This document shows positions 4,682 through 19,534 of a DNA stretch of 22,722 bases, in pieces (within the stretch, counting starts at the first letter, position 1; the number at the start of each line of letters is the position of its first letter). The stretch is from assembly GCA_018830405.1 (NCBI GenBank), contig JAHJSF010000030.1, forward strand, positions 1 through 22,722, written 5' to 3'. The notes beneath the pieces are model-generated. The model searched no databases and was not told where the DNA came from. It worked only from the letters and a program-made list of their open reading frames with translations. Made by a program: the position numbers and the translations under genes. The DNA comes from Nitrospinota bacterium (GTDB taxonomy: Bacteria > Nitrospinota > Nitrospinia > UBA9942 > JAHJSF01).

Positions 4682-4797
4682 TAAAGAGTGTCATAACTTC
4701 GCATGCCTTTGTTGCTCCTCAGTTCGTCACTGCGGCGTATGCTGAAATACGCCTCACTCCTCACTTTTGTCGCGCCTCGGTCTACTTTGTTCTGACC
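4682..4797 (-). repeat. Hairpin repeat family, copy 1 (inverted relative to the 11.0-kb copy)
   Basis: About 116 bases that match, as reverse complement and nearly end to end, the sequence at 10974-11092. Read on the minus strand it runs TCAGAACAAAGTAG, a GAGGAGTGAG block, a hairpin GGCGTAT-TTCAGC-ATACGCC (plus-strand 4734-4753), GAGGAGCAACAAAGGC, then GTTATGAC. It fills the gap between the GT2 and GT9 genes and runs into the 3' end of the GT2 coding sequence. The stem abuts the GT2 stop codon and has no T-tract, so it might shield an mRNA 3' end rather than terminate. Confidence 0.85.
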
Positions 4798-5563
4798 CTC
4801 CACGCGTAGTTCCATTCATAATAAGCTCTCTAAGTTTTACATACTTCAAAAAGGTGGCCTGGGCCGATATGACGCTTATCACTAGACCATAGTAGCCGTC
4901 AAGAAAACCAAGTTTAACTACATAATCCCTGAAAAATTTCCAAAGTGGGTTCAACACTATCATCAGGAGAGGAGCACTCTTCCCGTTTCTTAAGGCGGTA
5001 GCCGCCCCTATATCGGTAAATTTATTTACCTGGTCGATATGGCCCCTTATAGAGTAGTAGGAATAATGGAGGAGATCTCCCTTAAGGAAATGGGTGGTTG
5101 AGCCGGCTTGGAGCAGGAACTTATCATGCGGATTATTCCCCTGCCAACTCCCTTTCCGTCTATCCCATAAACGGAGCTTACGGTCAGGATACCACCCGAG
5201 ATGCCTTATCCATTGACCGCAGTAATTAGTCAGGCGGTTAAAATAGTAGCCGTCATATTTCCAGCTATCCTTCACCTCCATAATGGAAGATTTAAGCTCA
5301 TCCGATAGAGCCTCGTCCGCATCAAGGGAGAGGACGTGGTCATAGGCTGCTTGGGCGGCAGCCCAATTCTTCTGCTCTATATGCCCCTCAAATTTATATT
5401 TAATAAAGCGAACACCATACTTCTGGCAAATCTCTTCTGTCTTATCTTTAGAGAAGGAATCAACCACAACAATTTCATCCGCCACCCCACGCAGAGATTC
5501 GAGGCAACGGCCGATATTTCTCTCCTCGTTATAGGTTATGATTACCGCCGATATCTTATTCAT
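4754..5563 (-). CDS. Glycosyltransferase family 2, WaaE/KdtX-like
   Basis: A 269-residue GT-A enzyme. It starts NKISAVIITYNEERNIGRCLESL, then VADEIVVVDSFSKDKT, and has the metal-binding LSLDADE at about 78-84. Spacing and sequence resemble the WaaE/KdtX subfamily of lipopolysaccharide core beta-1,4-glucosyltransferases, with the typical WYPDRKLRLW, HDKF and HYSY segments. No clear transmembrane segment is present. The gene begins 3 bases after the dut stop with no obvious Shine-Dalgarno, so translation is probably coupled. The last 13 residues (SEQSRPRRDKSEE) and the TGA are encoded inside the hairpin repeat at 4682-4797, so the native C-terminus was apparently replaced by repeat sequence. 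GT2 membership is firm; the acceptor is inferred. Confidence 0.88.
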   Translation of the reverse strand: MNKISAVIITYNEERNIGRCLESLRGVADEIVVVDSFSKDKTEEICQKYGVRFIKYKFEGHIEQKNWAAAQAAYDHVLSLDADEALSDELKSSIMEVKDSWKYDGYYFNRLTNYCGQWIRHLGWYPDRKLRLWDRRKGSWQGNNPHDKFLLQAGSTTHFLKGDLLHYSYYSIRGHIDQVNKFTDIGAATALRNGKSAPLLMIVLNPLWKFFRDYVVKLGFLDGYYGLVISVISAQATFLKYVKLRELIMNGTTRGGSEQSRPRRDKSEE

Positions 5564-5566
5564 AGG

Positions 5567-6013
5567 TCAGCTGTTTTTAAGGTTGGAAGAGCCAAAGCCT
5601 TTGTCATGTCTATCCGATGAGGCAAGTTCCCCATTATCCACTTCAACAATATTCCAGTCACTAACCGGTATCGGGACAAGCTGGGCTATCTTATCCCCTC
5701 GCCGAATGGCAAAATCATCGGTCGAGTTATTTCTCATGACAATCTTAATCTCCCCTCGATAGCCGTGGTCGATGACACCGGCATAGGTATGCACCCCCTT
5801 AACGGCCATGGAGGAACGATCCTTGATAAACCCACCCCACCCCTCAGGAAACTCCACCGAGATAGAGGTCGGCACAAGCCCCTGCCCTTCTTTAGCTATA
5901 GTTATATCCTCAGAGGCATAGAGATCATACCCCAGATCTCCCTCATAGGCCCTGGTCGGGAGTATCCCCCCTTCCGACAGTCTCAACACCTTAAGCTCTT
6001 TAATGATTCCCAC
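5567..6013 (-). CDS. dut: Deoxyuridine triphosphatase (dUTPase)
   Basis: A 148-residue homotrimeric-type dUTPase of normal length. All five motifs are visible in order: GDLGYDLYA (1), DRSSMAVKG (2), YAGVIDHGYRGEI with the catalytic Asp (3), GDKIAQLV (4) and the Gly-rich C-terminal arm HDKGFGSS (5). The arm has DK where many homologues have TG. It hydrolyses dUTP to dUMP and pyrophosphate in the cytoplasm, keeping uracil out of DNA and feeding thymidylate synthesis. The gene just upstream encodes a dCTP deaminase that makes its substrate, so the pair forms a dCTP-to-dUMP route. The two are split by a 267-base gap holding a compound repeat. The start ATG at 6011-6013 is the first in frame. Confidence 0.95.
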   Translation of the reverse strand: MGIIKELKVLRLSEGGILPTRAYEGDLGYDLYASEDITIAKEGQGLVPTSISVEFPEGWGGFIKDRSSMAVKGVHTYAGVIDHGYRGEIKIVMRNNSTDDFAIRRGDKIAQLVPIPVSDWNIVEVDNGELASSDRHDKGFGSSNLKNS

Positions 6014-6024
6014 CTCTATGTTTT

Positions 6025-6278
6025 AGGGTCTTCGTGTCTTAGTGTGGGTCATTTTATCCTATCCCCCCTCTTTGGCAAATCCGACCACCAACTCCTCCCT
6101 TTGGCAAAGGGAGGTTGGGAGGGATTTTATAATCATAACCCACTCCATATTTCCATCTCCCGGTTTTCAAATCCCCCTTCATCCCCCTAACAACCCCCTT
6201 TTATTCCCCCTTTGTTAAGGGGGACTTGAGGGGGTTGTAATTCCCCGTTTTCTAAAGGGGGAATTTATTTAAGGCCTT
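6025..6278 (-). repeat. Compound repeat, copy A (occupied by a nested module)
   Basis: On the minus strand this begins AAGGCCTTAAATAAATTC just after the dCTP deaminase stop. It continues through GAAGGGGGATTTGAAAAC, GGGAGATGGAAATA, a Pu/Py-rich CTCCC/GGGAG block, TAGGATAAAATGACCCACAC and a tail of ACACGAAGACCCTAAAA. The same sequence, in inverted orientation, lies at 12343-12500. Copy A is longer because about 60 extra bases (the module at 6188-6240 and its junction) interrupt it. The tail resembles the 'ACACTAAGACACGAAGAC' type of intergenic repeat seen in many genomes. No open frame lies in this 267-base gap between dCTP deaminase and dut. Confidence 0.85.
6188..6240. repeat. Nested 53-bp C/G-rich palindromic module (MITE-like)
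   Basis: Perfect 10-bp terminal inverted repeats, ACAACCCCCT at 6190-6199 and AGGGGGTTGT at 6229-6238, enclose an inner hairpin CCCCCTT-TGTT-AAGGGGG at 6206-6223. The related 12.4-kb repeat copy lacks this module. The same 10-bp ends recur at 15410-15419 and 15517-15526 around a longer interior. That makes it a separable unit, probably a miniature inverted-repeat element. No recognisable target duplication is certain. Confidence 0.75.
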
Positions 6279-6280
6279 CA

Positions 6281-7438
6281 CTATATATTTTTAAAATGTT
6301 TACTCAGGGCCAACCCCTGTTTATGGTAGTGGGACCCGATATCAGCCCCATAGTATGATGATGGCGATTGAAGCATACGCTCATACTTTATCTTACAGAA
6401 TATCTGCCCATCCTCTATCCTGAAGGGGACATCGTGGGGACGAACCTCCAAGACCGCCTTGGTTCCCTTAATCTCTCCCCCTTGGCCGTAACCGAAACCG
6501 CTGTCAAAGAAACCTGCATAGTGGGTCCTAACCTCCCCAGAACCGGCATCAAACTCAACCATCTCCCCGGCCATGTCGAGAGGAACTCGAACCCTCTCCG
6601 TAGAGGCAAATATATAAAACTCCTCCGGCTCCAGAATGATATGTCTATCGGGGTGTGACATAATCGGCTCCCAATACTCCTCAACATCGTAGTGGCGTAT
6701 ATTATCAAGGTCGATAACGGCACTATTCTTCTTGGCCTTATAACCTACTATCTCCCTATCCCCAGAGGCCGAACCTATCCCTATCCCCATAAAGAGTCCC
6801 CCCTTCATAACCGCCTTGTCGGCGGGGACAGCCTGGCCGTTATCGTAGTAGAGAAGGGGATCTTTTTTATAATACGCCAGCAACTCTGAATCGGTAATCT
6901 TGGAGGCATCTACGCAATTGTCGCCACCGCTACCGGCTGTAAAGAGACGGAGCTGGTTTAAGGCCTGCCCCGCCTTAACCTTGATGGTAAACGATTTAGG
7001 GACTATCTCCATATAGAGTCCCCCCTTATAGCCCGGCTCTATATCCTCAAAACGGCAGCCGTAGTCGGTAATAACCCTGGTAAAGATATCAAGTCTCCCC
7101 GTAGAACTCTTTGGGTTGGTTCTGGCGGAAATATTAGGCGGCAGGTTGAGACTTTCGAGAAGCGGAATCAGGTAGACATTCCCCTTCTCTAATATTGCCC
7201 CGTTTGAGATATCAATCTGGTACATTTCAAGGTCGGCCACCCCCTCCATCACCCTCTCTTTGTGGGGGAGGAAACTGCTCCTTATCCTATAGCAGACAGG
7301 CCCAAGCCTTAGATCCAAGCTGGATGGTTGGATACAACTATCGTCTATGGTCAGATCAGAGGTTATATACCCCTCCCTAATAACATCCCGCAAAATATGG
7401 TCAGGCAGCACCCCGTTTGAATCAAAAAAATCGGTCAT
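6281..7438 (-). CDS. dcd: Two-domain 2'-deoxycytidine 5'-triphosphate deaminase
   Basis: A 385-residue protein, twice the length of the usual about 190-residue Dcd. The N-terminal half has SSLDLRLG (39-46), NPKSSTGRLDIFTRV (108-122), similar to the RSSLGRLGL motif, and IEPGYKGGLYMEIV (133-146), matching the IDPGWxGxxxLE catalytic segment. The C-terminal half repeats the fold, with AGEMVEFDAGSGEVRTHYAG, FFDSGFGYG and KAVLEVRPHD. This matches the tandem DCD family (Pfam DCD type) found in alphaproteobacteria and others. It should deaminate dCTP to dUTP, the substrate of Dut encoded next. It is the first gene of the minus-strand operon, behind an extended -10 promoter at 7513-7521. The ribosome site is weak. 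Alternatives such as a bifunctional dCTP deaminase/dUTPase are less likely because a separate dut is present. Confidence 0.88.
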   Translation of the reverse strand: MTDFFDSNGVLPDHILRDVIREGYITSDLTIDDSCIQPSSLDLRLGPVCYRIRSSFLPHKERVMEGVADLEMYQIDISNGAILEKGNVYLIPLLESLNLPPNISARTNPKSSTGRLDIFTRVITDYGCRFEDIEPGYKGGLYMEIVPKSFTIKVKAGQALNQLRLFTAGSGGDNCVDASKITDSELLAYYKKDPLLYYDNGQAVPADKAVMKGGLFMGIGIGSASGDREIVGYKAKKNSAVIDLDNIRHYDVEEYWEPIMSHPDRHIILEPEEFYIFASTERVRVPLDMAGEMVEFDAGSGEVRTHYAGFFDSGFGYGQGGEIKGTKAVLEVRPHDVPFRIEDGQIFCKIKYERMLQSPSSYYGADIGSHYHKQGLALSKHFKNI

Positions 7439-7479
7439 TATAGTCGATACCCGCTTATAAATTGGTTTTTCCCCACTTA

Positions 7480-7498
7480 ACCGTCTAACCTTGACGGT
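7480..7498. promoter_or_regulatory. 6-bp inverted repeat in the dcd leader
   Basis: ACCGTC (7480-7485) and GACGGT (7493-7498) are perfectly complementary with a 7-base loop. They would lie in the leader of the dcd operon transcript, about 42 bases upstream of its start codon. This could be an operator or a leader hairpin; no function is demonstrated. Confidence 0.35.
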
Positions 7499-7512
7499 CG
7501 GCTGATTCGATA

Positions 7513-7521
7513 ATTATAGCA
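7513..7521 (-). promoter_or_regulatory. Extended -10 promoter for the dcd-dut-LPS operon
   Basis: The minus strand reads TGCTATAAT, a consensus TATAAT preceded by the TGn extended -10 element. No good -35 is seen at 16-18 bases, which extended -10 promoters do not require. The predicted start near 7506 would leave a leader of about 68 bases before the ATG at 7438. It is divergent from the dacB promoter 70 bases away. Confidence 0.5.
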
Positions 7522-7590
7522 TAGAGGCTGGTCATAAATTAGCCTCCTATCCGCCTTTGAATATCTATTCCAAGGCAACGGGGGAGATGT

Positions 7591-7618
7591 TTGACATTTA
7601 TAGTCAAACAGATATAAT
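7591..7618 (+). promoter_or_regulatory. Consensus sigma-70 promoter of dacB-recJ, with an overlapping inverted repeat
   Basis: A perfect -35 (TTGACA, 7591-7596) and perfect -10 (TATAAT, 7613-7618) are separated by 16 bases. The predicted transcription start is about 7625, two bases before the dacB ATG at 7627, which implies a leaderless mRNA. TTTGAC (7590-7595) and GTCAAA (7603-7608) form a 6-bp inverted repeat across the -35 and spacer, a plausible repressor site. Confidence 0.75.
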
Positions 7619-7626
7619 CCCTGGTT

Positions 7627-9084
7627 ATGACAAAGAAAAGACTCCTTATAATAATATTTACAATAATATCTTTTATATTAATCCCCTTACTGCTCCGGGC
7701 AGAGGTCGGTCCGGCCACAATCTTCAACAGGGTAGACAATGTCGTCAAGAGAGGGGAAAAACGTTGCCTCAGCAATGGGGGGAGTATCGGGGTAAAGGTC
7801 TACTCTCTCGACCATAAAGAGCCTATATACAGCCACAATGGCGATACCCTCTTGATACCAGCCTCAAACATGAAGCTTATTACCACAGCAGCCGCCTTAA
7901 AGGTTCTGCATCCAGATTATCGATTCAAGACATCAATCTTCTATGATGGGAAAAGGACAAATTCCCATATCGAAGGAAACCTATACCTGAAGGGGTATGG
8001 AGACCCTAAGTTGGTCCTTGAGGAGATGTGGCTCCTGGCCCATGAGATAAAAAATAGTGGGGTTAAAGAGATAAGGGGAAATATCGTCGCGGACGACTCT
8101 TTCTTCGACAAGGAGAGATACGGACATGGGTGGGGGAAAGATTTAGACTCTAACCCCTATAATGCCAAGATAGGCGCCCTCTCCTTCAACTTCAACACCG
8201 TCAGGGTCTATGTGAGACCTGGCGATAAGGTTGGAGATAAACCATATGTTGCCCTAGATCCCCAAACCGACGCGGTAGACTTGGTAAACATGGGAAAAAC
8301 CGTGGGAGCTAAAGATAGGGGATATCTAAATGTATATAGCGACAACGGGGGGAGTAAAGACCGTGTCGTAGTAAAGGGGGAATTGCGGATAAACAGCGAA
8401 CCAAAATATTATTACAGAACGATATCCAACCCCCCCTTGTTTGCGGCCAAAACATTTCGCAGTTTCCTCGAAAAAGAGGGTATTCTGGTGACAGGTAATA
8501 TCACCATCGGGGAAACCCCCTCCACAGCCAAGGAGTTGCTCCAGAAGGAATCTAAATCCCTCTCGGTTATTATTAGAGACCTAAATAAGATGAGCAACAA
8601 CTTTGTGGCCGAACAGATATTGAAGACGATGGGGGCCGAGGTAATAGCCCCCCCCGGAACAACCGCCAAGGGGATAAAGGTGGTTGAGGACTTTTTGGAA
8701 AAATTGGGGATAAAAAGAGGGGAGTATAAAATGGTCGATGGCTCCGGTCTATCCAAAGAAAATCGCCTCACCCCGGCCCAAATAATAAAGGTATTGGTAT
8801 ATACAGATAACGACTTTACCATTAAATCGGACTTTATCTCCTCTCTCAGCGTAATGGGAACCGATGGCACCCTTAAGGATAGAAGTATAAGGAATGGAAA
8901 AAATAGGTCAGTCAGAGCCAAAACAGGAACCCTCGACAATGTCAGTTCTCTCTCCGGCTACCTTAAAACCGCCGGCGGTGAAAACTTGGCCTTTTCAATA
9001 ATGGTCAATGGCTTTAGGTGTTCTGTAGATGACGTTTGGGAACTGCAGAATGAGATAGTTGACACCTTGATAGAGGGGAAATAA
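7627..9084 (+). CDS. dacB: D-alanyl-D-alanine carboxypeptidase/endopeptidase, PBP4 type (peptidase S13)
   Basis: A 485-residue low-molecular-weight penicillin-binding protein. A signal peptide (about 1-25, KKR then a long hydrophobic core ending LLLRA) exports it to the periplasm. The serine active site has all three motifs: SNMK at 80-83, SNN at 323-325 and KTG at 432-434. The large insertion between the first two motifs is typical of the S13 class. It removes the terminal D-Ala of peptidoglycan stem peptides and cuts 4-3 crosslinks. The start at 7627 is supported by the signal peptide, although it lies only about 9 bases after the -10 element and has no Shine-Dalgarno. recJ follows after 2 bases, so the two are co-transcribed. 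Confidence 0.93.
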   Translation: MTKKRLLIIIFTIISFILIPLLLRAEVGPATIFNRVDNVVKRGEKRCLSNGGSIGVKVYSLDHKEPIYSHNGDTLLIPASNMKLITTAAALKVLHPDYRFKTSIFYDGKRTNSHIEGNLYLKGYGDPKLVLEEMWLLAHEIKNSGVKEIRGNIVADDSFFDKERYGHGWGKDLDSNPYNAKIGALSFNFNTVRVYVRPGDKVGDKPYVALDPQTDAVDLVNMGKTVGAKDRGYLNVYSDNGGSKDRVVVKGELRINSEPKYYYRTISNPPLFAAKTFRSFLEKEGILVTGNITIGETPSTAKELLQKESKSLSVIIRDLNKMSNNFVAEQILKTMGAEVIAPPGTTAKGIKVVEDFLEKLGIKRGEYKMVDGSGLSKENRLTPAQIIKVLVYTDNDFTIKSDFISSLSVMGTDGTLKDRSIRNGKNRSVRAKTGTLDNVSSLSGYLKTAGGENLAFSIMVNGFRCSVDDVWELQNEIVDTLIEGK

Positions 9085-9086
9085 CC

Positions 9087-10835
9087 GTGGATACCCGCCT
9101 CGCCCCCCCCAAAACAATCTGGAATATAGAGGATGACAACGTCGATCTTAGGCGGACCATCTCCAAGGCCTTGAACATCTCCCCTATAACGGCTCAGATC
9201 CTGATCAATAGAGGTATAGATAACATAGAAATGGCCGATAGGTTTATCAACCCATCCCTTGAGCATTTCCACGACCCCTTTCTTATTAAGGATATGGATA
9301 AAGCGGTTAAAAGAATATTATCCGCCGTAGACAAGGGGGAGAAGATATATATCTATGGTGATTATGATGCCGATGGAATAACCGCCACCTCTCTCCTGAT
9401 ACTCTTCTTCCGCGATATAGGGACTGAAGTAAGTTTTTATATCCCTGATAGGATAAAGGAGGGCTATGGGCTGCATGAAGCGGCCATAAGGGAGATTGCC
9501 CAAAAGGGAGGCCAATTAATCATAACGGTCGACTGCGGCATCAGCGCAGTGAACGAGGTGCTGATAGCCAAAGATTTAGGGGTCGATATCGTCATAACCG
9601 ATCATCATAAGATAGAGGATATATTACCCGAAGCAGTCGCCATACTCCACCCCGCTATGGAAGATTCATCTTACCCATTCCAAACCTTGGCCGGAGTAGG
9701 GGTGGCCTTTAAGCTTATAAAATCTCTGCGCAGTTCAATGCACCGGAACGGGACGGAGAAAGAAGATCTCCCCAACCTAAAAAAATATCTCGATATAGTC
9801 TCGATAGGAACAATATCAGACATCGTCCCCCTGGTAGACGAAAACCATATAATAGCCAAATATGGGCTGATAGAATTGTCCAATACCTGTAGGCCGGGGC
9901 TAAAGGCCATAAAGGACGCGGCCAGAATATCAGACCACAATACAACCGCTCACGATATAGGCTATGTCATAGCCCCACGTATAAATGCGGCCGGACGCAT
10001 CGGCAACGCCTCAAAGGCGGTTACCCTACTCACCACCGAGAATATAGAGGAGGCCAATATTTTGGCGGCCGAGCTTGAGGTCGAGAATAGAAAAAGACAG
10101 AGGATGCAACAAGAGATATATAAAGAGGCGGTTAAGATGATAGGGGATATAGACCTAAACAGTCAAAGGGCCATCGTCTTGGCCTCCCCCAACTGGCACC
10201 CGGGGATAATAGGAATTGTGGCCTCTAAGATAGCCAATCAATTTTTGAGGCCAACGGTCATATTTAATTTAGATGGGGATACCGCCAAAGGTTCTGCCAG
10301 AAGCATCTACTCTTTTCATCTCTACAATGCCATATCGCAGTGCAAGGATATCCTGTTGGCCTTCGGAGGACACGAGTATGCGGCCGGAATAACAATCAAA
10401 ACCGAAAACATGGAAAAATTCAGGAAAGTCTTTAATGAGATTGTCGCCGAGGAATTAACCAAAGAGGCTATGGTTAAGCATATCGATATAGACATGGAGG
10501 TAAGCCTGAGCGATATAGACAATAAGCTAGCCAACGAGTTGGAGATGATTGCCCCATTCGGTTCTTCCAATCCCTCCCCCCTACTCTGCGCGCGAAGGGT
10601 CAGGTTTGCCGCCCCACCAACCTACATGGGAAAAGATAGAAACCATGTCCGAGTACACCTTGAGGGGGGGGATAATATTATAGAGGCAATCGCCTTCAAC
10701 GCCGTAAATACCTTTAAAGAGATTATGTCTGAAGATGAAGAATTCGATATCGCCTTCACCCCAGAAATAAACAGATATATGAATAGCTCAAGGCTTCAGC
10801 TGAACCTTAAAGATATACACTCCTCAAACCACTAA
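9087..10835 (+). CDS. recJ: Single-stranded-DNA-specific exonuclease RecJ
   Basis: A 582-residue protein of normal RecJ length. The DHH phosphoesterase domain shows DYDADG (92-97), DCG (149-151), TDHH (171-174) and GTISDIVPL (241-249), followed by PRINAAGRIGNA (297-308). The DHHA1 domain carries the GGHEYAAG motif, and a C-terminal OB-like region ends in a beta-rich segment. It degrades single-stranded DNA 5' to 3' in recombination and mismatch or base-excision repair, using Mn/Mg bound by the Asp/His motifs. The start is GTG at 9087, two bases after the dacB stop, with AGAGGGG about 9 bases upstream as ribosome site. Pairing with dacB looks like simple co-transcription. Confidence 0.95.
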   Translation: MDTRLAPPKTIWNIEDDNVDLRRTISKALNISPITAQILINRGIDNIEMADRFINPSLEHFHDPFLIKDMDKAVKRILSAVDKGEKIYIYGDYDADGITATSLLILFFRDIGTEVSFYIPDRIKEGYGLHEAAIREIAQKGGQLIITVDCGISAVNEVLIAKDLGVDIVITDHHKIEDILPEAVAILHPAMEDSSYPFQTLAGVGVAFKLIKSLRSSMHRNGTEKEDLPNLKKYLDIVSIGTISDIVPLVDENHIIAKYGLIELSNTCRPGLKAIKDAARISDHNTTAHDIGYVIAPRINAAGRIGNASKAVTLLTTENIEEANILAAELEVENRKRQRMQQEIYKEAVKMIGDIDLNSQRAIVLASPNWHPGIIGIVASKIANQFLRPTVIFNLDGDTAKGSARSIYSFHLYNAISQCKDILLAFGGHEYAAGITIKTENMEKFRKVFNEIVAEELTKEAMVKHIDIDMEVSLSDIDNKLANELEMIAPFGSSNPSPLLCARRVRFAAPPTYMGKDRNHVRVHLEGGDNIIEAIAFNAVNTFKEIMSEDEEFDIAFTPEINRYMNSSRLQLNLKDIHSSNH

Positions 10836-10877
10836 ACCTCCCCGCTAAAACTCTATACATTTACCGGTACCCATATT

Positions 10878-10906
10878 TTGCAGAAATAAGACAAAAAAGC
10901 TATACT
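10878..10906 (+). promoter_or_regulatory. Promoter for tyrS
   Basis: TTGCAG (10878-10883), a 17-base spacer and TATACT (10901-10906) give a good sigma-70 match. A start near 10913 would give a leader of about 200 bases that contains the hairpin repeat at 10974-11092. Confidence 0.55.
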
Positions 10907-10973
10907 GTTCTTGTGCATCAAGTCGCCGACGTCTTTTCTATATGCGGCAATATTGATTAAAAAGTAGACAGGG

Positions 10974-11092
10974 CATCAGAACAAAGTAGGCCGAGGCAAG
11001 ACGAAAGTGAGGAGTGAGGCGTATTTTCAGCATACGCCGTAACGACAAGCTGAGGAGCAACGAAGGCATACAAAGTTATGAGGCTCTGAATA
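10974..11092 (+). repeat. Hairpin repeat family, copy 2, in the tyrS leader
   Basis: This matches the reverse complement of 4682-4797 over nearly its whole length. It runs TCAGAACAAAGTAG, GGCAAGACG, GAGGAGTGAG, a hairpin GGCGTAT (11018-11024)-TTTCAGC-ATACGCC (11032-11038), then GAGGAGCAACGAAGGC, AAAGTTATGAG and CTCTGAATAA. The ends TCAGA/TCTGA are imperfectly complementary. It ends 6 bases before the tyrS Shine-Dalgarno, so it would be transcribed as part of the tyrS 5' leader. The gap 10836-11110 holds this and the promoter and nothing else recognised. Confidence 0.85.
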
Positions 11093-11110
11093 AATAACAA
11101 GGAGATATTT

Positions 11111-12322: not shown

Positions 12323-12342
12323 TATTACTCAATGATAAAGTA

Positions 12343-12500
12343 AAGGCCTTAAATAAATTCCCCCTTTAGAAAAGGGGGATGAAGGGGGATTTGAAAACTG
12401 GGAGATGGAAATACGGAGTGGGTTGTGATTATAAAATCTCCCCCCACCCCTCTTTGCCAAAGAGGGGGAATAGGATAAAATGACCCACACGAAGACCCGA
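12343..12500 (+). repeat. Compound repeat, copy B (empty of the nested module)
   Basis: This begins AAGGCCTTAAATAAATTC and continues colinearly with the reverse complement of 6025-6278, through GAAGGGGGATTTGAAAAC and TAGGATAAAATGACCCACAC to a shortened ACACGAAGACCC tail. It lacks the 53-bp palindromic module found in copy A and also a few bases of the tail. It fills most of the 214-base gap between tyrS and speB. The CCCCCTTTAGAAAAGGGGG stem near its start has no T-tract. Confidence 0.85.
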
Positions 12501-12536
12501 TAAAGAGATTATCAGCAACAATCGGAGTTAAAAGTT

Positions 12537-13397
12537 ATGAGAAATAATTTTCTTGGCCTCAGCGACGGGGAGGCCGATTTTGACAAAGCCAAGGTTGTTA
12601 TCCTGCCTATCCCTTACGACGCAACCGTCTCCTATCAGAGCGGGACAAGAAACGGGCCGGAGGCCATTATCACCTCATCCCAATATGTTGAGCTCTACGA
12701 CGATGAGTTCGAGGCCGATATCTCGACCATAGGGATACATACCTCTGATGCAATAGAGACTGCCAAGAGCGGGCCTAAAGAGATGTTGGAGACAATAGAA
12801 GAGTGGGCCAAGGAGATTATTTATAGGGGGAAGTTTCTTGTCTCCCTTGGGGGGGAACACTCTATCAGCTCCCCTCTGGTCAAGGCCCACGCCAAGAAAT
12901 ATAAAAATCTTTCGGTCCTTCAGCTTGATGCCCACGCCGACCTGAGAGATTCCTACCAGGGGACAAAATATAGCCACGCCTCGGCCATGCGGAGAATAAG
13001 GGAGATAACCCCGGCCGTGCAGCTGGGCATCAGATCTTTCTCCGAAGAGGATGCCGAACTCATTAAAAAGGAAAATCTCCCAGTTTTGAAATCGATAGAT
13101 ATTATACAGGGGGACAGTTGGAAGGGGATGATAAGAGAACATCTGACCGAAAATGTCTATGTAACCATAGACCTCGATGTATTTGACCCATCGATAATGC
13201 CGGCTACGGGAACACCAGAACCTGGGGGGCTTGGCTGGTACAAGGTTTTGGAGATACTAAAATTTGTCTCTGAGGAAAAAAATATTGTAGGATTTGATAC
13301 CGTTGAATTAATGCCCATTCCGGGATTGGTGGCTCCCAACTTTTTGGCTGCCAAGTTAATATATAAGATGATTGGATATTCGTTATGGAAAAAATAG
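12537..13397 (+). CDS. speB: Agmatinase / ureohydrolase family protein
   Basis: A 286-residue ureohydrolase of usual agmatinase length. The di-manganese ligands are all visible: H108 in GGEHS (105-109), D131, H133 and D135 in DAHAD, and D212 and D214 in DLDVFDP. The substrate loop GTKYSHASAMRRI is of the bacterial/archaeal agmatinase type. It would hydrolyse agmatine (or an aminopropyl/carboxyaminopropyl derivative) to putrescine (or spermidine) and urea in the cytoplasm. It overlaps the deoxyhypusine synthase-like gene by 13 bases, so the two products probably act in one polyamine route. The ribosome site is CGGAG about 10 bases upstream. Other ureohydrolases (arginase, guanidinobutyrase) cannot be excluded from motifs alone. 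Confidence 0.87.
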   Translation: MRNNFLGLSDGEADFDKAKVVILPIPYDATVSYQSGTRNGPEAIITSSQYVELYDDEFEADISTIGIHTSDAIETAKSGPKEMLETIEEWAKEIIYRGKFLVSLGGEHSISSPLVKAHAKKYKNLSVLQLDAHADLRDSYQGTKYSHASAMRRIREITPAVQLGIRSFSEEDAELIKKENLPVLKSIDIIQGDSWKGMIREHLTENVYVTIDLDVFDPSIMPATGTPEPGGLGWYKVLEILKFVSEEKNIVGFDTVELMPIPGLVAPNFLAAKLIYKMIGYSLWKK

Positions 13398-14482
13398 TTA
13401 AACGAAACCCCAAATGTTACAAAAAGGGGGAGGGATTAAGGAGTCTAAAGTCTTTCAAGGTTAGAGATAAAAGCCCCGACCAGATAATGAGGGCCATGCG
13501 TGATACGGGTCTATCGGCCCGCGAGACAGCCAAGGGGGTCGACATACTGGAAAAGGGGATACTCGACAAGGATTGTAAGATGGTTCTAACCCTCTCCGGC
13601 ATTACCACCATATCGAAGATGGGGGGAATCATCTGCGAGATGATCGATGACGGATGGGTCGATTGCATCATCGCCACCGGGGCCCTAATTGCCCACGGGA
13701 TAGTTGAGGGGGCCGGGGGGGCACACTTTGAGTACGACCCGTCCATATCGGACGAAGAGCTGTATGAGATGGGTTACGACCGGATTTACGATACCCTGGA
13801 ACTTGAATCAAACCTTGATAGTATCGCCCTGCAGCTTGAAGAGGTTTGGAAACCTCTGATAGACAGCGGTAAACCGATAGCCTCCTCCGATTTCTGCCGA
13901 GAGACAGGAAGAATGCTTAACGATAAATATCCAAACCAGGATTCAATCATGAAATCGGCCTTCTTGAAGAATGTCCCGGTCTTTATCCCCGCCTTTACCG
14001 ATTCGGAACTGGCCTTGGACCTCGTCTCCTACTTTGCCAAGGGGGGACTCGATAAGGGTATGACCTTTGATGAGGCGATAGAGGATATCCACAACCTAAG
14101 GTTTAATCCCTTTATAGACCTTAAGCGTTACTTCGATTTTACCAGAGAGGCCAAGAAGATGGGGATACTTACCCTTGGGGGAGGGGTTCCGAGAAACTAT
14201 GCCCAGCAGGTTATGCCTATGCTCGATATACTCGGACAGCGGCTGAGTGAATATAATATAGCCGACCAGTTGGAGATAAAGAAATTTATGTACGGGGTCA
14301 GGATATGCCCAGAACCGGTATCTTTGGGCGGATTATCAGGATGCACCTACTCGGAAGGGATATCTTGGGGGAAATTTGCTTCCAGGGAAGAGGGGGGGGC
14401 GTTTGCCGAGATACACTCAGATTATACTGCGGTTCTCCCTTGGATGGTCAAGAGTCTCCAAGAGAGATTGGGTAAAAAGTAA
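13385..14482 (+). CDS. Deoxyhypusine synthase family protein (bacterial)
   Basis: A 365-residue NAD-dependent enzyme of the deoxyhypusine synthase family. Early TLSGITTISKMGG and ATGALIAHGIVEG, and later TLGGGVPRNYAQQ (263-275), correspond to the NAD-binding segments. The lysine that forms the imine intermediate in the eukaryotic enzyme is kept: SWGK, K330. True deoxyhypusine synthase transfers the aminobutyl group of spermidine to eIF5A, which bacteria lack. Bacterial relatives are thought to act on free polyamines, for example as homospermidine synthase-like enzymes. Overlap with the agmatinase gene and probable translational coupling support a polyamine role. The exact acceptor is unknown. 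Confidence 0.85.
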   Translation: MEKIVKRNPKCYKKGEGLRSLKSFKVRDKSPDQIMRAMRDTGLSARETAKGVDILEKGILDKDCKMVLTLSGITTISKMGGIICEMIDDGWVDCIIATGALIAHGIVEGAGGAHFEYDPSISDEELYEMGYDRIYDTLELESNLDSIALQLEEVWKPLIDSGKPIASSDFCRETGRMLNDKYPNQDSIMKSAFLKNVPVFIPAFTDSELALDLVSYFAKGGLDKGMTFDEAIEDIHNLRFNPFIDLKRYFDFTREAKKMGILTLGGGVPRNYAQQVMPMLDILGQRLSEYNIADQLEIKKFMYGVRICPEPVSLGGLSGCTYSEGISWGKFASREEGGAFAEIHSDYTAVLPWMVKSLQERLGKK

Positions 14483-14514
14483 ACCGCGGAGTCACCGAGA
14501 GACCGCCGAGTTTA
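14481..14514 (+). repeat. CCGCnGAG mini-repeat, copy 1
   Basis: This follows the deoxyhypusine synthase stop codon directly: AAACCGCGGAG, CACCGAG, ACCGCCGAGTTTA. It is built of three near-repeats of a CCGnGAG unit and is bounded by AAAC and GTTT. A second copy lies at 17048-17080 after mltG. Similar GCAGAG/GCGGAG strings are common intergenic repeats in several bacterial groups. Confidence 0.5.
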
Positions 14515-14564
14515 TGATTTCTGTCATTCCCCTCGCCCGCCTAAGGTAGCACTACCCAATAGTT

Positions 14565-14652
14565 CCCCTCCTATTTTAGGAGGGGTGGCCGAAGGCCGGG
14601 GTGGTAAGTCTTCTAAACCAACCACCCCTGCCCCTCCTTAACTAAGGAGGGG
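14565..14652. repeat. Cluster of G/C-rich palindromes between convergent genes
   Basis: Four hairpins lie in a row: CCCCTCCTA-TTT-TAGGAGGGG (14565-14585), GGCC-GAA-GGCC (14587-14597), GGGGTGGT (14598-14605) pairing with ACCACCCC (14621-14628), and CCCCTCCTTA-AC-TAAGGAGGGG (14631-14652). The first and last are near copies of each other. They sit between the ends of the deoxyhypusine synthase-like gene (plus) and a gene of unknown function (minus), where a two-way transcription stop would be useful. No T-tracts follow. This may equally be a dispersed palindromic repeat. Confidence 0.7.
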
Positions 14653-14673
14653 AGCCTGTATTGTCGGAAAAGG

Positions 14674-15264
14674 TTAGTCCAGCTTCTCCACTTTGGCCTT
14701 TGAGAGATGCTTTTTGAAGACATTGTCGTTTGACTTAATAAAAAGGGCAACATCCTTAGCCAGGGTGTCGTATATTGCCTCCCCAAGGCAAACAAGGAGC
14801 ATTCGGCCGAACGGTGAATTAACCCCCGGGTATTCAGGCAGCTTACTACTGCTGTCTTTGAGCCGTTTGGCAACATCCTTGTCGCTATAGAGGTCAGTAT
14901 CCACATACTTATAAACAACGCGGACAAAGTCGCGCTTCTTCTGATCCATAATCTTGGCGCCTACGACCAAGTCTTCCATCTCTATTGAAAAAGGCTTCCG
15001 CTCCTTGGTAATGAGACTCTCTACCTCTTTAAAATATTCTTCTTTGGTATAGTTTTTAACCAGAAGTTCCTCAGGGATTTTTGAGCTGAATTCAACGTAT
15101 ATATCTGTATCGTCAACCCTAACCTTGCCGATATCGTAGGTAATATTGTTATCGATAAAACGACCGGCTTTTTTGGGGGTATATGTCCCTCTGAGTTCTT
15201 CTCTCAGCCTTGCGACACTGCTATTGACGATATCACCATATATATGTTGCCTAAAGGTTGCCAT
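14674..15264 (-). CDS. Protein of unknown function (196 aa)
   Basis: I do not recognise this protein. It is about 196 residues, soluble, charged and Lys-rich, with no signal peptide, membrane segment or Cys cluster. It starts MATFRQHIYGDIVNSSVARLREEL, has a central beta-rich stretch (IDNNITYDIGKVRVDDTDIYVEF), and its C-terminal half looks helical. The frame extends to TTG at 15267, but I prefer ATG at 15264 because AAAGGA is spaced 6 bases from it. It has its own promoter at 15332-15360 and faces the deoxyhypusine synthase-like gene. Codon use is like the core genes, so recent transfer is not indicated. Clean start signals and length support a real gene. Confidence 0.72.
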   Translation of the reverse strand: MATFRQHIYGDIVNSSVARLREELRGTYTPKKAGRFIDNNITYDIGKVRVDDTDIYVEFSSKIPEELLVKNYTKEEYFKEVESLITKERKPFSIEMEDLVVGAKIMDQKKRDFVRVVYKYVDTDLYSDKDVAKRLKDSSSKLPEYPGVNSPFGRMLLVCLGEAIYDTLAKDVALFIKSNDNVFKKHLSKAKVEKLD

Positions 15265-15331
15265 CAAAATTCCTTTCCATACTGCTGTTTTTAAACTATC
15301 AGATTCTTAACCGATTTTAGGTTTGGGATTC

Positions 15332-15360
15332 ATCATAGTTTATATGCTTAACAAATGCAA
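15332..15360 (-). promoter_or_regulatory. Promoter for the unknown gene at 14674-15264
   Basis: On the minus strand TTGCAT (15355-15360) and TATGAT (15332-15337) are separated by 17 bases. Transcription would begin near 15325, giving a leader of about 60 bases with a normal ribosome site. Confidence 0.6.
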
Positions 15361-15384
15361 GCATAGGGGTGGCAGCGTTATATT

Positions 15385-15550
15385 ATACGGAGTTACATTC
15401 AAAATAATTACAACCCCCTTACTCCCCCTTTTCTAAGGGGGAATTATGGGAGGAATTGCAGTAGAGTCCCCCTTGGGAAAGGGGCATCCAACGATTCCCC
15501 CTTAACAAAGGGGGGTAGGGGGTTGTTAGCGTTTGAATGCGACTCCGTAT
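15385..15550. repeat. Modular inverted-repeat element with ATTCAAA ends (166 bp)
   Basis: The 19-base outer arms (15385-15403 and 15532-15550) are complementary at 17 positions: ATACGGAGT, then a spacer, then ATTCAAA, mirrored as TTTGAAT and ACTCCGTAT. Inside, ACAACCCCCT (15410-15419) and AGGGGGTTGT (15517-15526) match the ends of the nested module at 6188-6240, here around a longer C/G-rich interior with several CCCCC/GGGGG stems. The end sequences ATTCAAAATAATTACAA and GTTAGCGTTTGAAT recur at 19423-19522 with a different interior. No open frame is present. With the promoters on each side it accounts for the 15265-15585 gap. Confidence 0.8.
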
Positions 15551-15579
15551 TGACAAACAGAAGGGATAGCAGGTAATCT
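15550..15579 (+). promoter_or_regulatory. Promoter for ruvX-mltG, abutting the repeat element
   Basis: TTGACA (15550-15555), an 18-base spacer and TAATCT (15574-15579). The first T of the -35 is also the last base of the right arm of the element at 15385-15550. The predicted start is at about the ruvX ATG (15586), so the mRNA may be leaderless. Confidence 0.6.
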
Positions 15580-15585
15580 CTAACC

Positions 15586-16014
15586 ATGAAAACACTTTCT
15601 TTGGACTTTGGAAGCAAATATATCGGGGTGGCCATCAGTGATGACCTCGGTATCATAGCCGTCGGTCTTGAGGTAATTAAGAGGGAATACCTCAAGAATG
15701 ATATAGATAGAATAAAGACCATTATTGAGGAAAACGGGGTAGAGGAACTGGTAGTCGGACTCCCCAAAAAACTAAATAACGATGTAGGAATACAGGCAGA
15801 TAAGACCATTGCCTTCGTTGAATCTCTGAAAGAAAACATAGATATACCAATTCAGATGTGGGATGAGCGGCTAACCACTGCCGAGGCGCAAAAGATGCTT
15901 ATATCGATGAATGTCAGCCGAAGCAAAAGAAAAAAGGTAATAGATAAGGTGGCGGCCCAGCTTATTCTGGACAGCTACCTGCAATTTAAAAAGAACAGAA
16001 AAAACAGAGAATAA
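15586..16014 (+). CDS. ruvX: Putative pre-16S rRNA nuclease / Holliday junction resolvase family protein
   Basis: A 142-residue YqgF/RuvX protein with an RNase H-like fold. LDFGSKYIGVAISD near the N-terminus carries the first catalytic Asp (D7). VVGLPKKLNN, WDERLTTAEA and DKVAAQLILDSYL follow in family order with the acidic catalytic residues kept. Members process the 5' end of 16S rRNA and have been proposed as resolvases. Its stop overlaps the mltG start (TAATG), showing translational coupling. Upstream there is no well-placed Shine-Dalgarno (AGG lies about 12 bases away), consistent with a leaderless start at the promoter just upstream. Confidence 0.93.
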   Translation: MKTLSLDFGSKYIGVAISDDLGIIAVGLEVIKREYLKNDIDRIKTIIEENGVEELVVGLPKKLNNDVGIQADKTIAFVESLKENIDIPIQMWDERLTTAEAQKMLISMNVSRSKRKKVIDKVAAQLILDSYLQFKKNRKNRE

Positions 16015-17042
16015 TGACCGCCCCGACCAAAAAAAAGAAGCAGAATAAAAGTGCCTTAGCCGCCACAATACTCCTAATCCTGACACTCTTGCTCTCCCCC
16101 TTAATCTCCCTCGGCTACTGGTTTTACACCCCCCATAATCCGAATGGACAGAATGAGATTGTGGAGATCAAAAAGGGGGGAAACATAAATACCATATCCT
16201 CCCTGCTTAAAGAGAGGGGACTCATAAATAACAGTCTCTATTACCGAATCATAGGGAGAATTGTTTCATTCGGCCTAAAACCAAAGGCGGGGGAATACCT
16301 CTTATCCGCCTCAATGTCCCCCTCGGTCATAATGGGCAAAATATCGAACGGTAAGGTATATATGCATCAGGTAACCATACCGGAAGGGTTTAATATCTAC
16401 GAAATAGCCTCGCTCCTCGAGGGAAAACAGTTGGCTAATAAGGAAAGATTTCTGGCTGCGGCAACAGACCGCGAATTCATAAAGTCTCTATCATTCGATA
16501 TCCCCTCCCTGGAGGGCTACCTTTTCCCCGACACATATCTATTGTCCAAGGGGATGACAGAAAGGGAGATTGCCGCCAAGATGGTTAAGACCTTCAAGGA
16601 GCTGGCCTATAACGAAATTGCGGCCAAGGCCTCCGCAGTGGGACTGACCCCTCATCAGGTTGTCAATATGGCCTCATTAGTGGAAAAGGAAACCGCCCTG
16701 AACGAGGAGAAAGTCATCGTCGCCTCTGTCTTTCATAACAGGCTGAAGAAGGGGATGAGGCTCCAGTGTGATCCAACCGTTATCTACGCCATCAAGAACT
16801 TTGACGGGAATATCAGAAAGAAGGACCTGATGATAGATTCCCCCTACAACACCTACCGCTACGCCGGACTACCGATAGGTCCGATAGCCAACCCGGGACT
16901 TGATTCCATACGCGGAGTCTTATATCCCGTTCAAAGCAATTACCTCTACTTTGTAGCCACCAAACAGGGGGGGCACTACTTCTCGACCAACATAAAAGAC
17001 CATAATAGGGCGGTCAGGAAATATCAGCTGAACGGGAAATAG
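16014..17042 (+). CDS. mltG: Endolytic peptidoglycan transglycosylase MltG (YceG-like)
   Basis: A 342-residue inner-membrane enzyme. A Lys-rich cytoplasmic start (KKKKQNK) is followed by one transmembrane segment (about 15-37), leaving a periplasmic LysM-like region and the YceG catalytic domain. The active-site motif NMASLVEKETAL places the catalytic Glu at about 224, followed by VFHNRLKKGMRLQCDPTVIYA and, near the end, SNYLYFVA. It cleaves nascent glycan strands and sets their length. ruvX and yceG-type genes are neighbours in many bacteria, which supports both calls. The ATG shares its A with the ruvX TAA stop. Confidence 0.94.
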   Translation: MTAPTKKKKQNKSALAATILLILTLLLSPLISLGYWFYTPHNPNGQNEIVEIKKGGNINTISSLLKERGLINNSLYYRIIGRIVSFGLKPKAGEYLLSASMSPSVIMGKISNGKVYMHQVTIPEGFNIYEIASLLEGKQLANKERFLAAATDREFIKSLSFDIPSLEGYLFPDTYLLSKGMTEREIAAKMVKTFKELAYNEIAAKASAVGLTPHQVVNMASLVEKETALNEEKVIVASVFHNRLKKGMRLQCDPTVIYAIKNFDGNIRKKDLMIDSPYNTYRYAGLPIGPIANPGLDSIRGVLYPVQSNYLYFVATKQGGHYFSTNIKDHNRAVRKYQLNGK

Positions 17043-17047
17043 ATTTT

Positions 17048-17080
17048 AAACCGCCGAGAACGCTGAGGCCGCAGAGTTTA
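17048..17080 (+). repeat. CCGCnGAG mini-repeat, copy 2
   Basis: It starts 5 bases after the mltG stop: AAACCGCCGAG, CGCTGAG, GCCGCAGAGTTTA. It has the same unit, length and AAAC...GTTTA borders as 14481-14514, and both copies follow a stop codon directly. It marks the end of the housekeeping operon. Confidence 0.5.
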
Positions 17081-17150
17081 CCAACATTATGACCAATGCT
17101 TAAATCCCTTATTGACTCTAACTACCTATCTGTAATACTGTTAAGCAGTT

Positions 17151-17271
17151 AGGGTGATTTCATATCAGACTAAAAACAGAGAACAATCATTCCACGAATC
17201 ACCCTTAATATAGGGATAAGTAAAAATATTTTCCTTATATATACTCCGATATGGTGGAAAGTATTTCCACC
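17151..17271. promoter_or_regulatory. Two inverted repeats upstream of the lipoprotein gene
   Basis: AGGGTGATT (17151-17159) and AATCACCCT (17197-17205) are perfectly complementary across 37 bases. GGTGGAAA (17253-17260) and TTTCCACC (17264-17271) form a perfect 8-bp palindrome with a GTA centre. A TATACT at 17240-17245 could be a -10 box, which would put the second palindrome at the transcription start, as for an operator. No convincing -35 is seen. The rest of the 17081-17297 gap shows nothing I recognise. Confidence 0.45.
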
Positions 17272-17297
17272 TATTAACACTTTTAGCGAGGAAAATT

Positions 17298-17693
17298 ATG
17301 AAACTCAAAAAAACCATAATCTTTATATTTGTATCCTTCATGTTGACGGGGTGCGCTGCTAGAACAGGACTTTTAGTCGAGGTTTCTGACGGAACAAAAC
17401 CCCTTATGGGCGAGGCTGTAGCGACAGTGGTCAGTGGTACTTTCCAGGTATCAAACTTAGAGGGCTATACATGCAATGGTTCATACAACCAGTGGACCAA
17501 ATCTCCTATCCTCAAAACAAAAGTATCTTGTAGTGATGGCCGTTTTGGAGAAGTAATGGTAATGCGAACTGGGCCTAATTTCATGAATGGTTCAGGAGAA
17601 GGAGTACTAAACGACGGCACTAAATTCAGAGTTTTGATGGGTGACATGGTTCATTATCGCAATACACAAGGAGTATGGGAAAAAGCAAAATAA
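17298..17693 (+). CDS. Small outer-surface lipoprotein of unknown function
   Basis: A 131-residue protein. A short basic start (KLKK), hydrophobic core and lipobox LTGC (Cys19) mark it as a lipoprotein; Ala after the Cys predicts outer-membrane sorting. The mature part (about 112 residues) is Gly- and beta-rich, with a likely disulfide pair (C59 in EGYTCNGS and C78 in KVSCSDG) and repeated GxGEGVLNDGTKF-like turns. I do not recognise the family. GAGG 8 bases before the ATG is the ribosome site. It is probably co-transcribed with the next gene. Base composition and codon use are more AT-rich than the preceding core genes. Confidence 0.78.
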   Translation: MKLKKTIIFIFVSFMLTGCAARTGLLVEVSDGTKPLMGEAVATVVSGTFQVSNLEGYTCNGSYNQWTKSPILKTKVSCSDGRFGEVMVMRTGPNFMNGSGEGVLNDGTKFRVLMGDMVHYRNTQGVWEKAK

Positions 17694-17725
17694 CAATTAG
17701 CGGCCTAAAAAATAGGAGAATCCTA

Positions 17726-18100
17726 ATGAATCTTGATGAGTTTATCGAAACGTCACTCAAACAAATAATTGATGGTGTCAAAAATGCACAAGTAGCAACA
17801 AAGCTTCCAGGAAAACACCCAACAAAAACAGACGTAATCAATCCAGCTGTAATGTATGGTGCGGATTCCGCACCCAAAGGTAAATACTTTGCTACAACCA
17901 GTAGAAATCTTGTTCATTTTGTTGATTTTGACGTTGCAGTAACTACTGATTCAGCATCTGAAACTAAAGGCAGTTTATCCATAAAGGTAGCTGGCTTTGG
18001 AGTAGGTGGTGGCGGTGGGGCTAAAGATAGAGATATAGTTGTAAGCCGTATTAAGTTTCAGGTCCCCATTATGCTACCGCAATCTTCGGATCAAGAATAA
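17726..18100 (+). CDS. Small uncharacterised protein, resembling the 'Trypco2'-type domain family
   Basis: A 124-residue protein. The frame stays open to an ATG at 17675 inside the lipoprotein gene, but ATG at 17726 has AGGAG 7 bases upstream and begins MNLDEFIETSLKQIIDGV, so I choose it. The layout is an amphipathic N-terminal helix, then HFVDFDVAVTT, a Gly-rich turn (GFGVGGGGG) and a closing SRIKFQVPIMLP. I have seen this pattern in many uncharacterised 120-150-residue bacterial proteins, and it may correspond to the domain called trypsin-co-occurring domain 2. Assignment is from memory and tentative. No signal peptide; likely cytoplasmic. Its link to the upstream lipoprotein is unknown. 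Confidence 0.65.
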   Translation: MNLDEFIETSLKQIIDGVKNAQVATKLPGKHPTKTDVINPAVMYGADSAPKGKYFATTSRNLVHFVDFDVAVTTDSASETKGSLSIKVAGFGVGGGGGAKDRDIVVSRIKFQVPIMLPQSSDQE

Positions 18101-18198
18101 TGCCTTTGCTATTATGCTTAAAAAAGATTAAGAATAAGCGCAATCGATATTTAAATAGCTGAAATGAAGTTCCCCCGATTTTACGGACACTAAATTTA

Positions 18199-18275
18199 GT
18201 TAGGCCGCAAGAGGCTGGGCGGTGCTAATCGCGGTCTATTGCGCTGGGCGGCTCCTGAACTCAACCGTTATATGT
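18199..18275 (+). other. Possible integron attC remnant upstream of the DUF2971 gene
   Basis: GTTAGGC (18199-18205) has the GTTRRRY form of an integron core site. About 60 bases later GGCTCCTGAACTCAACC-GTTATAT (GTTATAT at 18267-18273) resembles the L'-R' end of attC sites. Two GCTGGGCGG copies lie between. The expected complementary 5' half is not visible. GTTATATGT at 18267-18275 is the exact complement of ACATATAAC at 19171-19179 beyond the gene. Confidence 0.35.
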
Positions 18276-18284
18276 AAGAATATT

Positions 18285-19178
18285 ATGGATTACAAAATTC
18301 CAGAGTTTCTTTATAAATATACTTCCTGTTCAACTGCAAAATTAATATTAAGGAATAAAACAATACGGTGGAATTCTCCCTTAAATTTCAATGATATTTT
18401 TGAACTTAATCACTCGCTAGGGATGGATTTCGAAGAAACTAAAGCAGTAAACATTATCGCCCAGAAACTTGCCGCTGTAATATATGATGACGAGATTCAG
18501 CTTTATGATACCGGAAAGAAAAACCCCAAACTGGATTATATGCGAAGAAACTTGCGCAAAGACTCATATCCAATAGAACAGCTAGTCGAAACAATAAAGC
18601 TTGTGGCAAGAGAATTTATTCCCACGGTCAAAAATATTATAGAAAGTGAAAGAATACGTTGGCGAAAGGATATTGAGAATTATAGAATTTTATGTTTTTC
18701 TGAATTCAATGATTCTGACTTAATGTGGAAGCGTTATTCAGATCAGCATTCCGGGGTGGTCCTTCAATGGAAACCAATTGCTACGATTGATTCCACTCTT
18801 TTAGTGGCTCGCCCTGTAGTATATTCTGATGATATACCAGAAGTTGCTACATTTGAATATTTTACTGAAGTTGCTGTTGGTTTAAAACCAATGGTAAGCA
18901 CTGATGATTTGTCCGCATTAACAACTATTAAAGCGACATCATGGTCAGATGAAAATGAGTGGCGCATTGTTTCAACAAACAGAATTTACGATTCTGGAGA
19001 TCATGAAGATGTTCCATTTTCAGCACAAGAAATTAATTCTGTGTATTTGGGCTGTCAAATTGACAACAAAGATAAAAAAGTTATTTTGAAATATATTGAT
19101 GAAAATTTTTCTCATGTTAATGTTTATCAGGCATATATAGATGAAGATACTAGAGTGATAACATTTAAAAACATATAA
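18285..19178 (+). CDS. DUF2971 family protein
   Basis: A 297-residue cytoplasmic protein. It opens IPEFLYKYTSCSTAKLILRNKTIRWNSPLNFNDIFEL, the classic DUF2971 pattern of 'xLYKY ... NPxxFNDPFE'. Later come ILCFSEFNDSDLMWKRYSDQHSGVVLQW and SWSDENEWRIV, both typical of the family. Its biochemical role is unknown; members are common in phage-related regions, genomic islands and gene cassettes. The frame extends back to 18222, but ATG at 18285 gives the family start. The ribosome site is weak (TAAGAA). It is clearly more AT-rich than the core genes. The 9-bp inverted repeats at 18267-18275 and 19171-19179 bracket it, the second one containing its stop codon, as in an integron cassette. Confidence 0.85.
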   Translation: MDYKIPEFLYKYTSCSTAKLILRNKTIRWNSPLNFNDIFELNHSLGMDFEETKAVNIIAQKLAAVIYDDEIQLYDTGKKNPKLDYMRRNLRKDSYPIEQLVETIKLVAREFIPTVKNIIESERIRWRKDIENYRILCFSEFNDSDLMWKRYSDQHSGVVLQWKPIATIDSTLLVARPVVYSDDIPEVATFEYFTEVAVGLKPMVSTDDLSALTTIKATSWSDENEWRIVSTNRIYDSGDHEDVPFSAQEINSVYLGCQIDNKDKKVILKYIDENFSHVNVYQAYIDEDTRVITFKNI

Positions 19179-19305
19179 CTATGCAGTGCAGTTGAAATCG
19201 AAGCAGCCGGGATAAGTTTTGCTCTCTATATTTTATGATGTTCAAATCAGTCTAATGCATGTTAATATTCTCAAGGGTTCGATTCACTGACTTTCGCATT
19301 AGCCG
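19171..19305 (+). other. Possible decayed attC site downstream of the DUF2971 gene
   Basis: ACATATAAC (19171-19179) spans the stop codon and complements GTTATATGT upstream of the gene. GTTGAAATCGAAGC at about 19191-19204 is partly complementary to GGTTCGATTCACTGAC at about 19277-19292, as the L boxes of an attC would be. The expected closing GTTRRRY is not intact (CATTAGCC is near it). Between here and the element at 19411 I see nothing else. Confidence 0.3.
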
Positions 19306-19410
19306 TATTGAATGCAGGGCAATGTAGCTGACAGAAATTAATCCATAGTGGATGGGGGCAGGTCTACTGATGTTTGAGCCTCCGACTATCCCAACCGCCG
19401 TCTATTTTTT

Positions 19411-19534
19411 GCACGAAGTAGAATTCAAAATGATAACAAGGCGGCAAGGAGGAGGCGACGCAGGCATAGTTTGAGCTATGTTGAGGAGCTGACGACGAAG
19501 CCAACACAGTTAGCGTTTGAATAGTGCTTCGTGT
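19411..19534. repeat. Modular inverted-repeat element with ATTCAAA ends and hairpin-family interior
   Basis: The 19-base arms (19411-19429 and 19516-19534) are complementary at 15 positions: CACGAAG and ATTCAAA mirrored as TTTGAAT and CTTCGTG. The ends ATTCAAAATGATAACAA and GTTAGCGTTTGAAT match the element at 15385-15550. The interior instead belongs to the hairpin family of 4.7 and 11.0 kb: GGCAAGGAGGAG, stem CATAG (19465-19469)-TTTGAG-CTATG (19476-19480), GAGGAGC and GACGAAGCC. The right arm meets the stop codon of the phospholipase D-like gene. Confidence 0.8.

Follow-up and report, generated by a model that had tools for sequence, protein, structure and literature searches.

What kind of element the hairpin repeats of this locus represent, and whether they all represent the same one, is the question raised by the window analyzed here, the whole 22,722-nucleotide stretch of contig C167 from a Nitrospinota MAG (1.42 Mb in 185 contigs). 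A preliminary description, made from the letters alone, had proposed a single family with a conserved loop, three copies of which would keep their stems paired through compensating changes. The repeats are genuine: hairpins stand at all three places named, GAGGAG boxes occur in both arms on the same strand, ACGAAG-type flanks are present, and the genome carries many copies. They belong, however, to two families rather than one. The copies at 4682-4802 and 10968-11089 are members of family A and that at 19411-19534 is a member of family B, with different terminal inverted repeats (TIRs). A further B copy, with a hairpin of family C nested inside it (15386-15549), had been overlooked. The elements in the window are as follows.

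4682..4802, minus strand: family A copy 1, centre stem 4734-4740 / 4747-4753
6190..6238, no strand assigned: stand-alone C hairpin
10968..11089, plus strand: family A copy 2, centre stem 11018-11024 / 11032-11038
15386..15549, plus strand: family B copy with hairpin family C nested at its centre, upstream of ruvX
15410..15526, no strand assigned: nested C-type hairpin array (ACAACCCCC..GGGGGTTGT) inside that B copy
19411..19534, plus strand: family B copy without C, centre stem CATAG 19465-19469 / CTATG 19476-19480

The two A copies are approximately 86% identical and are inverted relative to each other. Copy 1 sits between two minus-strand glycosyltransferase genes, the upstream one of which terminates within it (4754-4802), its stop codon and last residues being supplied by the copy. 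Copy 2 lies between recJ and tyrS, with the copy and both genes on the plus strand. The B copy at 19411-19534 has a DUF2971 gene on one side and a PLD-like gene on the other, and its best relatives, found elsewhere in the genome, are 88-92% identical to it. Because the copies compared belong to different families, the contrast between GGCGTAT/ATACGCC and CATAG/CTATG, initially read as a compensatory change, is simply one between families A and B. A genuine compensatory change does occur inside family B, where other short copies carry CATAC/GTATG and the window copy carries CATAG/CTATG. Nor is the loop conserved as proposed, since the loops of A include TTTTCAGC, TTTCAGC, TTTAGC, TTAAGC, TTAAAC and TTAGGC.

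Searches of the genome recovered approximately 30 clear copies of A and 30 places for B; with partial copies counted, approximately 40 places per family are occupied in the DNA examined (A 43, B 40, E 44), more than expected by chance. Family E is a third family, 163 bp long, that is absent from the window. Elements of all three families are non-coding, span 118-163 bp and lie mostly between genes, and the genes that neighbor them are unrelated to one another. They share a common plan consisting of a TIR, two conserved purine-rich segments that face each other and lie on the same strand (GGCGCGACGAAGGCGAGGAGTGA and GTAACGACGAGCCGAGGAGCAAC in A), and a central hairpin. The TIR of A is ACAGAGCG..CGCTCTGT, and those of B and E are TACGRAGTYGCATTCAAA and AGTGYTTARTTGC, each inverted at the opposite end; the central hairpins are GGCGTAT/ATACGCC in A, CATAC/GTATG in B and CCATAG/CTATGG in E. 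Hairpin family C occupies the centre of an A, B or E element in 26 of 28 full copies, a figure obtained by reading the junctions by eye, as automated assignment left 10 of these unplaced, and the hairpin at 6190..6238 is one of the only two found outside. Many B and E copies are composite forms with C, and deletions between internal direct repeats and A/B chimeras were also found.

Two further observations concern other repeats. Within the window, 6032-6286 and 12335-12500 form an inverted pair of repeats of approximately 200-250 bp that contain C-like hairpins. The sequence at the outer ends of this pair (TCTTAGTGTGGGTCATTTTATCC) is similar to the ends (GGCTCATCGCGTCTTAGTGTGGGT) of multicopy IS-like repeats, which look ISL3-like and lie at contig ends in other parts of the genome. 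Another dispersed repeat of approximately 180 bp (FAM 2, e.g. C63:8425-8637 and C76:10631-10813) occupies approximately 30 regions, begins CTTTCTTG.. and contains CGCCTGCTGATTTTTTTAACGGC.

The two sides of the stems in A, B and E change together more often than phylogeny accounts for. Using the fold of the majority consensus, which was not picked by covariation, we counted compensatory double changes falling on the same branch of each family tree and compared them with a phylogeny-aware null in which the changes of each column are scattered at random over the branches. Family A shows 19 such changes against 1.8 expected (reached in 0/400 simulations), E shows 11 against 1.7 (0/200) and B shows 7 against 0.65 (0/400), with trees built on approximately 100-180 columns and a null that contains no gene conversion among copies. 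Column-shuffle and slide controls on A likewise both give an excess of pairing and of double changes. The covariation check advocated in the preliminary description bears out an aggregate excess in all three families but no individual pair: the per-pair R-scape-like test returned none within the structures at E<0.05, and the aggregate branch test was used for this reason. Paired stem changes are likewise real in the outer stems within each family, where the compensatory double changes of A, B and E mostly fall, and are not seen in the central hairpin of A, whose six pairs are never altered on both sides. Given that the within-family changes exceed the phylogeny-aware null, it is reasonable to infer, as had been suggested, that a folded form is either under selection or an intermediate in copying.

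The elements are MITE-like in having terminal inverted repeats, intergenic dispersal and short duplications of the target, of 3 bp in B and of 2 bp in the related family H. In B, 3-bp direct duplications, among them TCA/TCA and TGA/TGA, adjoin TACG..CGTA in 9 of 15 copies, where 3.7 are expected (p=0.0008; the duplication was found by scanning offsets). The signal for A is weak, and the E copies examined for target duplications showed none. Family H comprises approximately 100 near-identical 120-bp copies in sampled contigs of another Nitrospinota MAG, JACRGM01 (G012), and is flanked by a 2-bp duplication, usually TA/TA but also TG/TG and CA/CA (p<0.0001). The near-identity of its copies in one MAG suggests recent activity. 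A plain DNA search of 60 relatives with A gave no match, and a structure model was needed; the covariance model of A detects H in G012 at E about 2e-5. In the 908 kb searched (~64% of the assembly), no autonomous element or transposase with A, B or E ends was found. Solo H ends in G012, considered as parts of a longer autonomous element, proved to be relics or contig edges, and an IS630-type mobilizer was set aside as the assembly contains no IS630-type DDE_3 (PF13358) gene.

How far this architecture extends was addressed by running the pattern GAGTRAGGCGTA..TACGCCGT over GTDB genomes. It matched in JACRGM01, Syntrophus, Desulfobacteraceae and other Deltaproteobacteria MAGs, Geotalea toluenoxydans and one Methylomirabilota MAG, and each of ten sampled genomes carries the class I core in 22 to 150+ copies. 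A profile of class I loci from other phyla finds both window A copies, over the core only, at E values down to 8e-14; these loci were chosen by the pattern, so its 20 positions are partly conserved by construction, and the likeness reaches beyond those positions, as between A and L233 (E=4e-15). The cross-genome core itself shows 11 compensatory double changes against 1.2 expected (0/200). In G007, in turn, the E model picks up a related element, in three copies, whose centre (CCGCAGGCATAGC..CTATG..GAGGATT) is the same and whose ends are unrelated. Judged by these matches, within each of the two core classes the interior is common to genomes and the ends are unrelated. An ordinary MITE retains its parent's ends around an arbitrary middle; A, B and E differ in that the middle is conserved while the ends vary. 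This shared-core, swapped-ends architecture is the interesting part of the finding. Tentatively, it is possible that the elements form a multi-phylum superfamily of modular hairpins in which an internal-loop core is conserved and outer stems and hairpin tips are exchangeable. What is recognized for spread would then be the core together with the folded single strand, whether RNA or DNA, and not the terminal repeats; were the core the recognized part, these would be miniature elements whose spread depends on their fold. Such repeats occupy dozens to >100 intergenic sites in Nitrospinota, Desulfobacterota, Geobacterales and Methylomirabilota and carry no Rfam name.

Searching the literature for the core as a literal string gave only unrelated papers among the matches listed. 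A described relative may nonetheless exist. According to the accessible portion of Aklujkar et al. 2009 (PMC2700814), G. metallireducens has 24 predicted short RNA elements with the centre GRCGTAGCGCTGCTACGCC in common; like A, B and E they are intergenic and multicopy with a central palindrome (Additional file 4), and they differ in their loop and outer stems. Exact matches to this palindrome are present in 34 of 77 Geobacterales genomes, with as many as 98 in a genome, and the reversed control gave none. At one GRCGTAGCGCTGCTACGCC locus (L353) the flank matches the class I profile over nearly the whole length (E=1e-14), others share parts, and most Geobacterales copies match only weakly. On this likeness, and as far as that portion of the article describes them, the Geobacter elements appear to belong to the same superfamily, part of which is therefore probably already known, but not as mobile or covarying: the same portion reports no mobility, covariation or wider family (PMC2700814).

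We consider it most probable, at roughly 0.6, that families A, B and E consist of MITE-like insertion elements that are non-autonomous, are moved in trans and have their stems kept paired by a folded single-stranded state. The evidence for this is the observed dispersal, the inverted repeats, the duplications flanking B and H, the compensatory changes and the shared core with unrelated ends. Each element would form one long imperfect palindrome, with the TIR as the outer stem, the purine-rich segments set opposite one another in an internal loop (GAGGAG.. / ..ACGACGA) and the tip of the central hairpin replaceable by a second hairpin, that of family C. Spread would proceed by insertion with a short target duplication, and pairing in the stems would persist because a folded single strand is the form in which the element functions or is copied. 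The transposase, the folding molecule and the job of the core are what we infer; the mover is most likely a putative transposase of the cut-and-paste (DDE) type acting in trans.

By description, A, B and E resemble ERIC-type repeats, intergenic imperfect palindromes of approximately 120 bp whose mobilizer is not known, in being long imperfect intergenic palindromes. The likeness to bacterial MITEs (PMC10969869), which include Chunjie of Geobacter uraniireducens and to which the comparison is again one of description, extends to short length, non-coding content, TIRs, target duplications, intergenic position and stable stem-loops. The difference is that no parent IS was found for A, B or E, and that it is the interior rather than the ends that genomes have in common (PMC10969869).

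An alternative, which we regard as unlikely, is that A, B and E are cis-acting structured RNAs, such as mRNA stabilizers, terminators or regulators, with their multicopy spread being secondary. Structured RNAs are usually recognized by covariation together with conserved internal loops, and the related G. metallireducens repeats were annotated as predicted short RNAs in 2009, as far as the accessible portion of that article goes (PMC2700814). One strand is also favored in folding: in 70 of 70 tested A, B and E copies, RNA energies give the GAGGAG strand a more stable fold than the complementary strand, and the GAGGAG strand is likewise the more stable one in class I loci of other phyla. Elements tend, moreover, to share the strand of neighboring genes (same to opposite 63:37 in tandem contexts, A, B, E and H pooled, p=0.012). 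That bias is weak, orientation is mixed, and family E, at 9:12, runs opposite to it, such that orientation relative to 3′ ends and operons does not serve as proof of an RNA role. Neither does the asymmetry of single changes prove one folded strand, with G-U to A-C ratios of 30:13 in A, 34:31 in E and 11:9 in B, an excess confined to A. Against cis-acting RNAs stand also the mutually unrelated neighbor genes and the target duplications with the approximately 100 near-identical H copies, which point to insertion; an Rfam search of the elements, the window and L183 gave a chance match only, to no described RNA family. For the insertion elements that we favor, the weak orientation bias and the more stable fold of the GAGGAG strand tip the balance slightly towards transcribed RNA, rather than DNA, as the folding molecule.

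Template switching between the arms (quasipalindrome correction) would produce paired changes with no selection on folding, and is, in our assessment, distinctly improbable. It would suit the placement of 18 of the 19 double changes of A on terminal branches, several of them in the same copy (L013, L021, L025), as well as the transversions among them (GC to TA, AT to TA), which are impossible via G-U. Yet the non-complementary internal loops, which such correction should erase, are conserved, and single G-U intermediates are common in A.

The preliminary description had raised a REP-type origin, in which a Y1 (RAYT) transposase would mobilize A, B and E in single-stranded form. This is very improbable and largely refuted: one Y1 gene does exist in the genome, and some were found in 8 of 11 other genomes searched, but the sole gene detected in the assembly (L086 on C26, 2855-3706, with a C-terminal helix-turn-helix) is bordered by GGGGTCAGGTCTTGCAATG palindromes and forms with them a RAYT-like unit that has no relation to these families. 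Four genomes heavily loaded with relatives of the core (approximately 100 copies in G012, at least 150 in G078, 52 in G080 and 141 in G084) yielded no detectable Y1 gene, although these assemblies are incomplete. The long terminal repeats and target duplications of the elements argue in the same direction; RAYT transposition is not known to produce such features. REPs of the GTAG and CGTC types, which accompany RAYTs, are single hairpins of 20-40 bp with a tetranucleotide tag (PMC3733652). A, B and E share with them the character of dispersed extragenic palindromes, many per genome, and were found instead to be 118-163 bp long with inverted ends and target duplications, neither having the 20-40 bp hairpin with a GTAG or CGTC tag nor being tied to a RAYT gene.

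A further class of repeats in this genome, TGTCATTCCCCGATTTAATCGGGGAATCCA, does resemble CGTC-type REPs (PMC3733652) in its letters and occurs at C93:4327, C80:1039, C5:3837, C104:2443, C66:548 and C44:765. Finally, at 12537-14482 of the window, an arginase/agmatinase-family gene adjoins a deoxyhypusine synthase-family gene, the latter enzyme being best known from eukaryotes and archaea.
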